DNA of 33,865 bases from Methylomonas sp. (GTDB lineage Bacteria; Pseudomonadota; Gammaproteobacteria; Methylococcales; Methylomonadaceae): assembly GCA_026990815.1 (NCBI GenBank), contig JALXCS010000384.1, positions 1 through 33,865 of the forward strand, in the 5' to 3' direction. Numbering within the stretch: the stretch's first letter is position 1; every line of letters starts with the position of its first letter. The notes below the pieces were generated by a model that saw only the letters and a program-made list of their open reading frames with translations, was not told the origin of the DNA and made no database searches. The position numbers were made by a program, and so were the translations under genes. Positions 11,059-18,405 of this stretch are shown one piece after another.

Positions 11059-13950
11059 ATGAAATGCAAATTCACCATTCAATGGCTGAGTAGATGGTTT
11101 ATTATCATCATTACCAGCCTGGTACTCAATCATTATGCACTGGCTGATGATGACGACGAGGACAAAGATGAACACTCAACAAGAATCATCATAAAAAGTG
11201 CAAAATACGATGCTGAAGAACATCGTCTCAAGGTAAAAACCAAATACAAAGGAAAAAAGCCCTATCAAGTTAAACTGCTTGATGAAGCTACGGGCGCTTT
11301 ATTATTCAGTAAGAAAACTAAAAAAGATTCTCTAAAAATAAAGATAAAAAATATTGAAAATGGCTCTGTTCCTTGCATTATTAAAGTACAAGTGGGAGAT
11401 ATCAGTCGCACGAAAAAGGTTAAACATGCCCCTGAAAATTGTAGCAGTCAATCAAGCGGGGGTAGCGCTGGTGACGAATCAGATAATAATGAAAATAATG
11501 GCATTACTAATGTCAAAATTGACGATGCCAAATATGAAGATGACCGTCTTACCGTAAAAGGCGAATTTAAAGGTGGGACGCCCCAGTTTATTAAATTGTT
11601 CGATGACAAAACTGGACAGTTGCTTTCAGAAAAAGAACCTGATGGCGATGAAAATAAATTCAAATTCAAACTTTATGGATTAACAACTGTACCGTGTCGA
11701 ATTAGGATACAGGCAGATCAAATTACTGCAATCAAAGAGGTTGAACATGCACCTGACGATTGCTCGGCAACAACTCCTACTCCCCCACCACCAACAACTG
11801 AAAATCAACCGCCTAGTTGTACCATCACAAGTCCAGCAAGTAACTCCGTCACTGTCAAACTGGGCGATTCAATCAATTTTTCTGGAACAGCCAGTGATCC
11901 AGATGGCGATCCAATCACTTTTGAATGGGATTTTAATGGCGGGGCTGATTCTCGTCCTTTGGTATTGAATCCGGGCAGTATAAAATTTGATGTCAACAAT
12001 GGTAGCTTTTTAGTCCATTTTATTGTAACGGATGACCAGGGAGCCCGTTGTACTGCAAGTATGACCGTTATCGTTGGAAATATTACACCGCCTCCAACGA
12101 CTGGCAATATGGTTCCACAACAACCGGCACCAGGTACTGCAGCCGCTGGTGATGGCAATCATGTGGTATTACCAGCCAATGACCTGGGTATGCACTGTGC
12201 AGATTTGGGCTCTTATCCTTTCAATATATTGCCGCCATTTAATACAGAAAACACCTATGTCATTAAAAAAGGTTCTGTTGGTGCAAATAAACCGCTCATT
12301 TTGGATGCCCGCGCAGTAACTGTGAAATATTCTGCCGCATCAAACCCCAATGATCCTGTTGGTCCTGATTCTATTAATTCGACCAGTCAAAATTTTCCAA
12401 TCGGTAGCAAATTGGCCGATGCTACCATCAGAAAATCAGATTTTTGGGATGAGTTTAAAAATAGTGGACAAAGTATTGCTTCCCTTTTGTTCCCCGGATT
12501 AAATCCGGTTTTTGATGAAGGTTTACTGACACTGGATAATGTGGACCAGGGACATGGTCGCTTTATGCCTGGAATTGCGAATCCTTACGTCGCTAATGAC
12601 CCACAAGAGTATAGCAAATTCGTTCCAGAATTCGGCTGGCATACCGCACAAGGTATTCCACTGACCAATGTGGATGATAAAGGTCGTTTGAATTCCTATC
12701 CACTGATGCGGGTCCAGGCATATGACAAGGCCAGTGGCCAGGTTGTTGCAACCACCGATGTTGTCGCTCCGGTTTCTGCCGAAGTAGATTGTCGGGATTG
12801 TCATACCGCTGGAAAAGTCGGCGCCAATCCAAATGCTCGCGACAAAGGTCCTGCATTTATTGCCCCTGCGTCAAGTGATCGACTGGATGTGGAATTGGCC
12901 GCCAAGAAAAACATCCTGATGTTGCATGACTTTAAACATGGAACAGATTTCATTGCACAAGACAAACCGGTATTATGTGCCGGGTGTCACCGTTCTAATG
13001 CACTTGCAACAGTGGGTGGACCAGCTGGAGATCCTGCAATCGATAGCATGTCAAATGTGATGCATGGTTTCCACGGTCGTTTGCAAACTGATACACAAGG
13101 AAATTTACTTCGTGATTTCAAAGGAGACCCAATTTTGATTGACCCGCAAAATTTAGCGGGAACAACATCGCTTATTCCTTTTGGCCCTGATGTACCAATG
13201 GAACAAAATTGTTTCCAATGTCACCCAGGGAAAATCACCCAATGTTTCCGTGGTGCAATGTTTACTGCCGGCCAGAAATGTGATTCTTGTCATGGTGACT
13301 TGTTAGCCATTGGGGGGGAATTCACAAGACAGGATGGAACGGTCCGTGAGCCGTGGGCAGATGAACCACAGTGTGAATCCTGTCATACGGGTATTGGCAG
13401 TGATCCGGTAGGCAATATTGCTTATCACGCCAACGATCCAGCTGCAGAACCATTACCTGGTAAAACTTCGAAGTTTGCTGTCAACGCTAATACTTTATAT
13501 CGCAATAGTCTGGATGGCCATGCAGATCTTGGGTGTGAGTCCTGTCACGGTAGTCCTCATGCCATTTGGCCAAACCGTAATCCAAATGCCAATGACAATG
13601 TCACTGCCATGCAGTTACAAGGGCATACGGGTACGATATTAGAGTGTACAACTTGTCATGAACCTAACAGCTTCCCTAACGGGACTCTTGATGGCCCTCA
13701 TGGCATGCATCCAGTCAACGATCCAAACTGGAATGATGAAGATGGCCATGGTCATTTTGCCGAGAACAGAGGAAATGGTGATCAATGTGCTGCTTGTCAT
13801 GGGGCCGATCATTTAGGAACACGACTGGCAAAAGTCCCAGTGGACCGGGTGTTAAAAGACCCTAAAGGCAAGGTGCTGACGACACTAAAAGCAGGCGATG
13901 AAGTTGCCTGTAACCTTTGTCATAGCCTCAGCAAGAGCTTTGACGATTAA
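11059..13950 (+). CDS. secreted multiheme c-type cytochrome (9 CxxCH) with duplicated N-terminal module and PKD-like domain
   Basis: Signal peptide; two ~85-aa repeats; PKD-like NQPPSCTITSPASNSVTVKLGDSINFSGTASDPDGDPITFEWDFNG; motifs CRDCH, CAGCH, CFQCH, CDSCH, CESCH, CESCH, CTTCH, CAACH, CNLCH. Confidence 0.92.
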   Translation: MKCKFTIQWLSRWFIIIITSLVLNHYALADDDDEDKDEHSTRIIIKSAKYDAEEHRLKVKTKYKGKKPYQVKLLDEATGALLFSKKTKKDSLKIKIKNIENGSVPCIIKVQVGDISRTKKVKHAPENCSSQSSGGSAGDESDNNENNGITNVKIDDAKYEDDRLTVKGEFKGGTPQFIKLFDDKTGQLLSEKEPDGDENKFKFKLYGLTTVPCRIRIQADQITAIKEVEHAPDDCSATTPTPPPPTTENQPPSCTITSPASNSVTVKLGDSINFSGTASDPDGDPITFEWDFNGGADSRPLVLNPGSIKFDVNNGSFLVHFIVTDDQGARCTASMTVIVGNITPPPTTGNMVPQQPAPGTAAAGDGNHVVLPANDLGMHCADLGSYPFNILPPFNTENTYVIKKGSVGANKPLILDARAVTVKYSAASNPNDPVGPDSINSTSQNFPIGSKLADATIRKSDFWDEFKNSGQSIASLLFPGLNPVFDEGLLTLDNVDQGHGRFMPGIANPYVANDPQEYSKFVPEFGWHTAQGIPLTNVDDKGRLNSYPLMRVQAYDKASGQVVATTDVVAPVSAEVDCRDCHTAGKVGANPNARDKGPAFIAPASSDRLDVELAAKKNILMLHDFKHGTDFIAQDKPVLCAGCHRSNALATVGGPAGDPAIDSMSNVMHGFHGRLQTDTQGNLLRDFKGDPILIDPQNLAGTTSLIPFGPDVPMEQNCFQCHPGKITQCFRGAMFTAGQKCDSCHGDLLAIGGEFTRQDGTVREPWADEPQCESCHTGIGSDPVGNIAYHANDPAAEPLPGKTSKFAVNANTLYRNSLDGHADLGCESCHGSPHAIWPNRNPNANDNVTAMQLQGHTGTILECTTCHEPNSFPNGTLDGPHGMHPVNDPNWNDEDGHGHFAENRGNGDQCAACHGADHLGTRLAKVPVDRVLKDPKGKVLTTLKAGDEVACNLCHSLSKSFDD

Positions 13951-13964
13951 ATCTTGAGCATACA

Positions 13965-14107: not shown

Positions 14108-15766
14108 ATGTCTTCGAAATCAATAAAAAAAATACAGCTCAGTACTTTAGTAGTTTTAGCGATGAGCTCTATCGCATATGCACAGTCACCAATTGAATAT
14201 AATCCAGCAAATACATTTGAAACAGGCGGCCCAATGCCTAATTTTGTATCTTCTGAAGATATTAATAATGATGGTCATGTTGACTTGTTGGTCTCGACAG
14301 AAAGAAAACTTCATTTCTTAATGGGCGATGGCAATGGAGTCTTGGAAAAAAGGGCAACTATCAGGCTTAATGCTACCGGAACGGGAGCGGCATTAGGTGA
14401 TTTCGATGGTGATGGCAGTCTGGACATAGCGATATCCGTTACATCCACTCGAACAACAGAAGCATATTGGTATAACTACCAGACAGTTCAAACCACCGAT
14501 ATTTACTTGAATGATGGAGCAGTAGATCCAGCTTTTACTAAGCTAGTCAGTCTGCCCTATTACGGCGTTGACAGCAAATTTCAAGCTGAAGATTTTAATG
14601 GTGACGGTTTTGATGATTTAATGATAAATGGCCATATCATGCTCAGTCAGGGCGATGGAAACTTTCTGGAAAAAGATAGCATATTAATTACTGATTATTA
14701 CCAAAATAAGATATCAGGGACCTATATGGCCGATATTAATAATGACGGTAATATCGATATCGTCTATGCAGGTTTATCGGTCAACTATTGTGGTAATGGT
14801 GATGGTAGCTTTTTTGAGTGCTATGACTCACTCGTACCATCCGGTGGAATCGTTGCTGATTTTAATGGTGATGGATTAATGGATCAGATTACAACAAAAA
14901 TTGTCAGTTTCAAGCAAATTCCATATTCCGCCTATAGCGGCGGAGGCTGCGGTACGGTCGTCAGCTATAGTTATAGCGGAAGGAGGGGTAGTCGACATCG
15001 GGGAGGACGCGGCCGAATACGACGGACCCGTTGTTTTCCAAGTTATAAGGTTACCCGTTATCGTAGTGAACCTGAAACATCTCAAGTGCTGATCAGGTTA
15101 CAAAATACTGATGGCACATTCGAAGAAATGACTTCCCCAATTATCGATGGCGAAATTGTTCAGCTGGATACCATCGATATAGATGGAGATTCCCTAACAG
15201 ATGTTGCTTTGCGTCTGAAAAATCAATCCGGCATATCTGTATTCCGTGGTTTAGGTGGTGGTGAACTAACAGCATTGAAACCAGTTACTGGCGCACCTTC
15301 TGTATTGAATTTTGAAGATTTCAATGAAGATGGTTTGCCTGATATTATCTATGTTGGTCTTAGCATTCCTTCAAAACTGGATTCTGATGCCTGGGCTTTT
15401 TTACATTTACAATCTTCTTCGGCTAGTAATTCGACTGAGGGAACAAGTACGGGTACAACTTCCGCCCCCCCTGCACCACCAGCAACGCAAAACACGTCTA
15501 CTGTTACTAATCCGGGCTCATCAAGCAATTCCAATTTTCCTGCTCTCGATCCAAATGGTGAGACCATAGAATTAGCTGGCACAATTAGTGAGCTCTATAA
15601 TGATCATTTCATACTTGAAAACACTGCTATTTGGTATGACAATTCGGCTACTTTCAAGTATGAACCTGGTTTTGTTTTGGAAGTAGGACAATCCGCTCAG
15701 GTAGAAGCGAACCCGAATGTGGACGGATCAGGAACAGCAATTAAGGTGCAAATTGGGCCTTTATAA
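14108..15766 (+). CDS. secreted FG-GAP/VCBS-repeat (integrin alpha-like beta-propeller) protein
   Basis: Signal peptide (KIQLSTLVVLAMSSIAYAQ) and seven Ca-loop-like repeats: DINNDGHVD, DFDGDGSLD, DFNGDGFDD, DINNDGNID, DFNGDGLMD, DIDGDSLTD, DFNEDGLPD; Ser/Thr/Pro linker, then a small C-terminal beta-rich domain. Confidence 0.85.
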   Translation: MSSKSIKKIQLSTLVVLAMSSIAYAQSPIEYNPANTFETGGPMPNFVSSEDINNDGHVDLLVSTERKLHFLMGDGNGVLEKRATIRLNATGTGAALGDFDGDGSLDIAISVTSTRTTEAYWYNYQTVQTTDIYLNDGAVDPAFTKLVSLPYYGVDSKFQAEDFNGDGFDDLMINGHIMLSQGDGNFLEKDSILITDYYQNKISGTYMADINNDGNIDIVYAGLSVNYCGNGDGSFFECYDSLVPSGGIVADFNGDGLMDQITTKIVSFKQIPYSAYSGGGCGTVVSYSYSGRRGSRHRGGRGRIRRTRCFPSYKVTRYRSEPETSQVLIRLQNTDGTFEEMTSPIIDGEIVQLDTIDIDGDSLTDVALRLKNQSGISVFRGLGGGELTALKPVTGAPSVLNFEDFNEDGLPDIIYVGLSIPSKLDSDAWAFLHLQSSSASNSTEGTSTGTTSAPPAPPATQNTSTVTNPGSSSNSNFPALDPNGETIELAGTISELYNDHFILENTAIWYDNSATFKYEPGFVLEVGQSAQVEANPNVDGSGTAIKVQIGPL

Positions 15767-15794
15767 ATAATCAAAACATTAATGCACTTACAGG

Positions 15795-15987
15795 TATGGC
15801 CATAGCCATTTTGCTGGAACCGAGGCATATAGTGATCCATGAGCCAATTTTCATCGAGCCGATCATTTTCGCTACTGATCGAGTGCTAAAAACCCTAACA
15901 GCAAGAGTGCTTATAACAATATTAAAAGTCGACGATGAGGTCTTCTGTTATCTTTGTCATAGTCTCAGTAACAGCTTTGATGATTAG
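15795..15987 (+). pseudogene. decayed duplicate of the 3' end of the multiheme cytochrome gene
   Basis: 15795-15868 aligns without gaps to 13741-13814 (53/74 nt by hand). After a short deletion, TDRVLKTLTARVLITILKVDDEVFCYLCHSLSNSFDD* aligns to VDRVLKDPKGKVLTTLKAGDEVACNLCHSLSKSFDD*. Confidence 0.85.
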
Positions 15988-16092
15988 GTAGGTACGTTGT
16001 GGATTATGGGATTAAAACAAGGCTGTTATTCACATTGCCAACGTTAATCGTCACTAACCTGACAAATTTAACAACCTTTATAATCTATCAAG

Positions 16093-16137
16093 AAAAGCTG
16101 CCAAATACACAATTACGTATTTGGCAGCTTTTGTTTT
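16093..16137. terminator. strong (probably bidirectional) Rho-independent terminator
   Basis: aaaagctgccaaatac (16093-16108) / gtatttggcagctttt (16117-16132), perfect 16-bp stem, then gtttttt; lies between the cytochrome relic (+) and the convergent GFA gene (-). Confidence 0.9.
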
Positions 16138-16175
16138 TTAACTTATGCCGTGATTTGGCTAAACAACAGTTGAAG

Positions 16176-16586
16176 CTAATCTTGCGGTGGCATTTCAGGG
16201 AATTTTGGTAAGCCTTCCGCCATAACATCCCAAGCAACCGAGTGACAGGTGAAAATATCCATTTGAGGCTCATAGTTTGACGGGTTCTCAAGAGAACCCG
16301 CCCGTATAGCCAGCATACCAGGCATTACTTCTGGCTTTCCAAACAGTTGTGAACCACAAGTTGGGCAAAATCCACGTTTAACTGTTTTCCCGCTACTACC
16401 CTTACTTTCAAAGTATTTAACTTCACCAGAAATAGAAACACTATCTTCCGGGAAAAACATGGCTGTTGCATAACCACTACCCGATGTTTTTTTACAATCG
16501 TTACAATGACAGTTTCCTGAAAATACCGGTGGAATAGTGCAAGTATATGAGACAGCACCGCAAAGACAATTTCCTGATAAAGACAT
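16176..16586 (-). CDS. GFA (glutathione-dependent formaldehyde-activating enzyme/CENP-V fold) family protein
   Basis: 136 aa; GNCLCGAVSY, NCHCNDCKKTSGSGYATAMFF, GFCPTCGSQLF zinc-binding Cys pattern of the GFA family. Confidence 0.9.
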   Translation of the reverse strand: MSLSGNCLCGAVSYTCTIPPVFSGNCHCNDCKKTSGSGYATAMFFPEDSVSISGEVKYFESKGSSGKTVKRGFCPTCGSQLFGKPEVMPGMLAIRAGSLENPSNYEPQMDIFTCHSVAWDVMAEGLPKFPEMPPQD

Positions 16587-16882: not shown

Positions 16883-17449
16883 ATGACTATTCTGCTCATC
16901 ATATCGGCTGTGACAGTTACCCTTATCATCATACTTGTCAAAATATTCAACACCTTAATTGACAAGAAAAATCAGGTTACAAATATTTTTTCCAGCACTG
17001 ATGTATTGTTAAAGAAACGTTACAATTTGATTCCTAACCTGGTTTCTTCGGTATCCAGATATATGGAACATGAAAAGGAAGTTTTACAAAAAATTACCGA
17101 ATTACGAAATCAGGCCAATAAACCCGATATTACGGATGATCAAAAAATTACCTTGGACAACGAACTATCTTCTGCATTAGGAAGCATCATGGTTGCGGTT
17201 GAAAATTACCCTGATCTTAAAGCCAATGAAAATTTCCTGCATTTGCAACACATATTAACGGAAATTGAAGCACAGATTTCAGCAGCTCGCCGTGCCTATA
17301 ACCAGGCAGTAACCAACTACAACAACGCCATCGAAATGATTCCAACTAATTTTATGGCTAGGTCCATGGGTTACACCCATAAAAAAGTTTTTGGTATCAA
17401 AGAATCCGAAAAACAAAACATTAATATTAAAGCATTGTTCAATCGGTAA
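16883..17449 (+). CDS. LemA family protein
   Basis: 188 aa; N-terminal TM, KRYNLIPNLVSSVSRYMEHEKEVL, RRAYNQAVTNYNNAIEMIPTNFMA; upstream AAGGAGATAAAAA. Confidence 0.92.
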   Translation: MTILLIISAVTVTLIIILVKIFNTLIDKKNQVTNIFSSTDVLLKKRYNLIPNLVSSVSRYMEHEKEVLQKITELRNQANKPDITDDQKITLDNELSSALGSIMVAVENYPDLKANENFLHLQHILTEIEAQISAARRAYNQAVTNYNNAIEMIPTNFMARSMGYTHKKVFGIKESEKQNINIKALFNR

Positions 17450-17457
17450 TTTCGACA

Positions 17458-18405
17458 ATGAAAAGCTACGATCAACTATTACAATTCTACAATGAAAGCC
17501 TGTTTTCCAAAGTGTAGGGACTAGAGCAGGAACGACAGGAAATTATCAAATTTCAGTACATCGTTATTGCCGTTCTGGCCGCGCTGTCACTGGGACTAAT
17601 ATTATTGGTGTACTTCATGACGGATCGCCCAGATATGGCAACTTTTATGCCCTTGACACTCATATTGGTAATACTTTGGTCTGTTTTGTTTCAAATGGAT
17701 ATTCACCGGGACAGTATTCGCGTTGGTCGATATCAGGAAACATTTAAGCAACAAATTATACACCCACTTATTCAAGCCATGGATGATCAATTTATCCATA
17801 CGCCTGATCACTGCGTATCCTATCAACTGGTCAGGGCCTCGGCATTTTTCCCGACGCGTGTTGATAAGTTTTCGGGTAACGACCATGTGAATGGCCAGGT
17901 TGATGGTGTAGACTTTCAATTCTCCGATGTTAAGTTGCTACAGCGGCATACCGATTCTAAAGGCCGTGTGACTTGGGAGAAATTGTTCTGCGGTACCTTT
18001 TTTGTGGCCGAATTTAACAAACATACACAAGGTGTTACCGTGATTCATCCCGAAACCTGGGAATACGGTGCGCCAAGCTATACGCGTTACTTGAAAATGG
18101 ATAATCCTGAATTTAATCAACAATTTAATGTTTATGGAACCGATTCAATTGAAGCGCATTATTTACTAACCCATACCATGATGAAGCGGCTGATGGAAAT
18201 TAAAAAATTGGCGACAGAAGATCTGCTGATTACATTTGCCGATGGCTGTATTTATCTGGCTATTGATTATGGCAATGACCCGAATGAAGCGCCAATTAAC
18301 ATTCCGGTTTCAAATCGAGTCATTCAATATATCCACACCCTGCAATTATTAGTGGATGTTATTAGGGAATTAAAACTCAATGAAAAACTCTGGGCCAAAC
18401 GCTAA
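17458..18405 (+). pseudogene. DUF3137-like membrane protein with in-frame amber codon near the N-terminus (ORF intact from 17605)
   Basis: ATG 17458 reads MKSYDQLLQFYNESLFSKV-TAG(17515-17517)-GLEQERQEIIKFQYIVIAVLAALSLGLILLVYFMTDRPD..., continuing in the same frame into the 266-aa ORF; adjacent to lemA, as DUF3137 genes often are. Confidence 0.7.

Follow-up and report, generated by a model that had tools for sequence, protein, structure and literature searches.

Why does the 3' end of a multiheme cytochrome gene occur twice within about 2 kb, once intact and once in decay, on either side of an FG-GAP gene? The window, which is the whole 33,865 nucleotide stretch of Methylomonas sp. DNA analysed here, carries both copies, and their coordinates and those of the surrounding features are given in Table 1. 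The earlier note reported that 53 of 74 nucleotides are identical, without gaps, between 13741-13814 and 15795-15868, and this count is exact on recomputation. It also proposed a pairwise alignment, to be judged against shuffled sequence. Gapped local alignment confirms the repeat and stretches it to 13742-13949 versus 15796-15986 with a score of 103, whereas 300 shuffles of 15767-16175 that preserved dinucleotides averaged 23 and never scored above 34. A blast search using 13700-13960 against the whole assembly matched only the query itself and 15796-15986 (E = 4.7e-16, 69%). The first similar base is 15796, at an ATG, and position 15795 is a mismatch; the two copies are spaced 2054 bp at the left and 2037 bp at the right. 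The similarity is significant by both score and E value, and the parent gene of 15796-15987 is the neighbouring nine-heme cytochrome. The segment is a degenerate repeat of approximately 209 nt at the 3' end of that gene.

Table 1. Features of the cytochrome locus, in positions of the window.
Feature	Position	Strand	Basis
Intact multiheme c-type cytochrome, 963 aa, PKD-like region, nine CXXCH	11059..13950	+	Pfam, CXXCH listing, ortholog
Twice-present 3' segment of the intact gene, proposed replacement tail from an insertion	13742..13950	+	Repeat; synonymous identity with G001
Decayed IS200/IS605-type right end including the last Y1 transposase codons	13955..14051	-	Matches to C17 and C241
Orphan FG-GAP/VCBS-repeat protein, 552 aa, signal-peptide-like N-terminus, C-terminal DUF5666-like domain	14108..15766	+	Pfam FG-GAP_3
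Relic, decayed and probably displaced original cytochrome 3' end, stops at native TAG	15796..15987	+	Alignment, blast, flank comparison, codon-position identity
Native cytochrome-GFA intergenic flank, retained beside the relic	15997..16140		79% identity to G001 (L033 7107-6963), E = 1.6e-25
Terminator-like hairpin between convergent genes	16090..16135		19-bp arms, 95% complementary; same hairpin in G001
GFA-family gene, the cytochrome's native neighbour on the right	16176..16586	-	PF04828; 90% aa identity, same position in G001

The intact cytochrome matches the Pfam families Cytochrome_C7, Cytochrom_c3_2, MtrC/MtrF domain II/IV and PKD_4, and its ortholog in G001, a Methylomonas sp. MAG, is 82% identical at the amino acid level. 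The last two of its heme motifs are CAACH at residue 910 and CNLCH at residue 951. Read in the cytochrome frame, the relic gives ...YSDP*ANFH..., with a TGA stop and then ANFH at the former CAACH (residues 910-914). The final motif (residues 951-955) is retained as CYLCH and is followed by SLSNSFDD, and the relic terminates at the TAG at 15985-15987. About 20 nt between the two heme-motif sites are missing, which places the two halves of the relic in different frames. The loss of the CAACH codons, the deletion of about 20 bp and the surviving terminal peptide had all been described in the earlier note, and all three hold. The disabling changes are the in-frame TGA, the frame change, the 20-nt loss and the disappearance of CAACH. 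No cytochrome codons upstream of codon 894 were found beside the relic, where similarity begins at 15796. Because of the frame changes, a 63-codon open frame has also arisen in the relic by accident, running from the ATG at 15796 to the TAG ending at 15987; the AGG before this ATG sits too close for a normal ribosome site.

G001 is the sole congeneric genome with the locus, and the comparison of flanks rests on this one relative. The genes there run rSAM-cytochrome-GFA-SPOR-coaX-birA; the cytochrome is present once and the FG-GAP gene is lacking. The stop codon of the relic and the bases next to it (GATTAGGTA; TAGGTA) are identical to the end of the G001 cytochrome, and 144 bp of the flank that comes next, hairpin included, align with the cytochrome-GFA spacer of G001. 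The intact copy in the window is followed by GATTAAATC (TAAATC...) and then by IS200-type sequence. Since the DNA behind the G001 stop matches the flank of the relic and not that of the intact copy, the relic occupies the native 3' end of the gene. Judged by the G001 flanks, the surroundings of the relic are the native ones of the gene's 3' end and those of the intact tail are foreign, as in a displaced gene end. The terminator-like hairpin at 16090-16135 is the original cytochrome terminator, now located 3' of both the relic and the FG-GAP gene. A match to Qrr RNA at 16091-16172 is under the gathering score and overlaps this terminator, and was treated as chance.

A second presence/absence difference between the two genomes lies near the first. 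In the window, lemA and a DUF3137 gene (16883-18405, plus strand) are located between the GFA gene and the gene at the SPOR position; they are absent there in G001, where these two genes are approximately 0.5 kb apart. The DUF3137 gene (17458-18405, plus strand) is interrupted at codon 20 by an in-frame TAG (17515), likely a nonsense mutation or a sequencing error, and its longest open reading frame starts from 17605.

Compared with G001, the window has about 2.05 kb of extra DNA, made up of a fresh cytochrome tail, IS debris and the FG-GAP gene. The debris is 77-80% identical to two copies in the same genome, at G000:C17:11068-11150 and C241:109-198, and the alignment reaches as far as the stop codon of tnpA. 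A Y1 transposase gene is present in the C17 copy (PF01797, E = 4.9e-38). Of the characters of IS200/IS605 elements, the remnant shows the right end and the tnpA stop only, and the Y1_Tnp domain is on the C17 copy. A left IS end was sought beside the FG-GAP gene and the relic, and none was found. The remnant lies directly behind the cytochrome stop, and its hairpin may now act as the cytochrome terminator. No integrase is encoded between 13951 and 15795, where, apart from the FG-GAP gene, the only open reading frame of at least 80 aa is an overlapping one of 85 aa, and there is no long exact attachment core at the insert.

The 310 other genomes searched within the order have no ortholog of the FG-GAP gene, and a class-wide sample of another 368 gave none at E <= 1e-20. 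Searches for its origin gave none among viral contigs and, among plasmids, merely FG-GAP repeats of 27-28% identity. The only related piece found in genomes of the order is a 67-residue C-terminal fragment on G004:C91. This is an isolated FG-GAP/DUF5666 tail (L042, 1501-1720; 77.7% nucleotide identity over 215 bp) without the repeat domain, a further remnant of the gene family within the same bacterial family. The window protein itself has a Gly/Arg/Tyr/Ser-rich, Cys-flanked insert between repeats, encoded at 14930-15060 on the plus strand (GGGCGTVVSYSYSGRRGSRHRGGRGRIRRTRC).

We suggest, with a probability of roughly 0.58, that the cytochrome gene originally ended in what is now the relic, which was severed from it by an insertion of about 2.05 kb that brought a substitute tail. 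In brief, the segment would have entered the gene near codon 894, carrying from left to right a substitute for the last approximately 210 nt of the cytochrome, IS200-type DNA and the FG-GAP gene. A left crossover within homologous cytochrome sequence would have restored the gene to full length, now with a new tail, and the right junction would lie at 15795/15796. The old tail would have kept its terminator and, next to that, the GFA gene, and, being useless, would have decayed. The incoming DNA may have come from another lineage that already had the cytochrome end together with the FG-GAP gene. One-sided homology combined with illegitimate joining is the route we consider most likely, the other being a now-lost integrase. 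The position of the IS200-type debris, immediately behind the intact tail, speaks for displacement, as do the native flank beside the relic, the G001 order without an FG-GAP gene and the absence of that gene from the 310 other genomes.

Upstream of codon 895, synonymous codons of the intact gene are identical to those of G001 in 350/706 cases, compared with 44/66 further on (Fisher p = 0.0097). A change-point scan run blind placed the shift at codon 884 (approximately 13708), with a marginal permutation p of 0.043; synonymous similarity to G001 there rises from 0.49 to 0.68, about 10 codons ahead of the repeated segment. No comparable shift was seen in six other gene pairs. This suggests that the duplicated tail is more recently linked to the lineage of G001 than the gene body is, and the jump suggests a separate origin of the intact tail. 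By codon position, identity is.79/.73/.60 for the relic versus.94/.98/.63 for the intact gene and G001, a loss of codon constraint in the relic. Changes specific to the relic number 28/121 at first and second positions (0.23) versus 16/40 at third positions (0.40), with p = 0.04. The fewer changes at first and second positions suggest that coding constraint acted during part of the divergence between the relic and the intact tail. If the relic was displaced, this bias would arise because the two diverged as functional genes in separate lineages before the relic died. The third-position identity of the relic to G001 is 0.51, equal to the gene-wide native value of about 0.50. Taken together, the synonymous jump and the codon-position bias fit a native tail displaced by that of a related lineage. 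With the trees described next, we regard the evidence as moderate and not decisive.

Other results count against displacement. In trees of approximately 190 nt, the topology uniting the relic with the intact tail has the best log likelihood, and none is rejected (AU p 0.73, 0.37 and 0.18), with the lowest value for the grouping of the intact tail with G001, which is the one that displacement predicts. The polarised sites split 4:4:3. To these are added the marginal change-point, the single congeneric genome on which the comparison rests, the lack of an integrase or attachment core, and the donor: no genome with a cytochrome-IS-FG-GAP arrangement was found.

The earlier note took the relic as the trace of an erased second cytochrome gene or of a duplicated cytochrome-FG-GAP cassette. 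It was right that the segment is a copy of the cytochrome 3' end in decay. The evidence does not favour the erased gene or cassette over a simpler history, given that the relic has the native flank, that no cytochrome sequence from before codon 894 survives in the repeat and that relatives have single copies. The history closest to its claim is one in which the entire gene was duplicated in tandem, the FG-GAP gene and an IS200-type element then landed between the two copies, and all of the second except its 3' end was lost. We consider this possible, though doubtful. It would leave the same flanks as displacement, and the codon positions of the relic hint at some time under coding constraint. 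Related multiheme cytochrome genes do occur as neighbours in the order, in clusters of distant family members in G039, G051 and G054. However, it requires at least two or three events, and it does not predict a synonymous jump at the boundary of the repeat. The search of relatives for an intact cytochrome-FG-GAP-cytochrome arrangement, which the earlier note had proposed, found neither this nor a tandem cytochrome pair at any of ten orthologous loci outside the window genome (G001, G017, G052, G055, G025, G204 (= L063), G253 (= L064), G239, G088 and G091). All ten have a single cytochrome copy, no relic and no FG-GAP neighbour; the downstream flanks are short in G017:C5, G088 and G091, two of the ten inspected loci being counted as short-flanked. 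The G253 locus belongs to a Bathymodiolus methanotrophic symbiont. The copies on C3 and C5 of G017 were considered as a second duplication and rejected, as they are 99.6-99.9% identical over the gene and approximately 7 kb of flank, which indicates a duplicated contig.

A local partial duplication of the 3' end alone within the lineage, by slippage or IS-related repair, would have produced a second copy that was dead on arrival. The best tree agrees with this, and so does the share of the total divergence time that the relic spent without function, estimated pairwise at 1.0 with a wide 95% interval of 0.55-1.9. This estimate seemed to favour local duplication, but given its interval and the disagreement of the lineage-specific count we do not rely on it. 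A copy dead from the start does not account for third positions that changed more than first and second positions in the relic, for the unusual nearness of the intact tail to G001, or for the FG-GAP gene between the copies, and we consider this history improbable. At much longer odds, the cytochrome 3' end could be a landing site for small cargo cassettes with substitute tails, which would add new secreted proteins, the FG-GAP protein among them, behind the cytochrome and leave it unbroken. Such cassettes would be an integrase-free, unrecognised kind of element, possibly tied to the IS200-type DNA. The idea that 15796-15987 is a living small gene or a functional RNA is very unlikely. In its favour, an open frame of this length would start from any one ATG with a chance of about 1% at this base composition, and the last 16 codons are kept better at first and second positions (29/32) than the remainder, a short stretch in which this is possibly chance, but the first half lies in a frame other than that of the cytochrome, there is no good ribosome site, the 63-codon frame has no Pfam match, the relic has no Rfam match, and relatives have no counterpart.

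If displacement is the correct reading, the relic gives the insertion its orientation, and the cytochrome would have stayed working because it received a replacement tail. The FG-GAP gene would be a newcomer under the old terminator of the cytochrome and not an old partner, and the pair should not be taken for a conserved functional cassette. The locus is otherwise ordinary genome archaeology of an uncultured methanotroph, with a well-preserved insertion scar.

Homology-facilitated illegitimate recombination is a mode of additive integration in natural transformation, as in work on Acinetobacter baylyi. The likeness to the window is that one junction is homologous and the other is not, with a partial gene copy beside the insert; the difference is that here no donor sequence is at hand and the mechanism is deduced from the outcome alone. 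With IS200/IS605 elements (PF01797) the insert shares a hairpin end and the last tnpA codons, which match the two copies in the same genome. It differs in having a decayed end alone, with no left end detected near the insert, and any role of the element in the event is putative.

In the icd gene of E. coli, the element e14 supplies the last part of the gene, and the old end of 163 bp is left as a pseudogene, as stated in PMC6379469, which cites Hill et al. 1989 for the displaced end. The e14 element is a 15-kb prophage that integrates site-specifically, whereas the insert in the window is about 2 kb, its two tail copies have diverged to about 70%, and, with neither an integrase nor a clean core, it is not an element of the e14 type. 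The outcome proposed here is nevertheless alike: foreign DNA lies in the 3' part of a gene and provides a new tail, so that the gene stays complete, and the old tail persists as a pseudogene on the far side.
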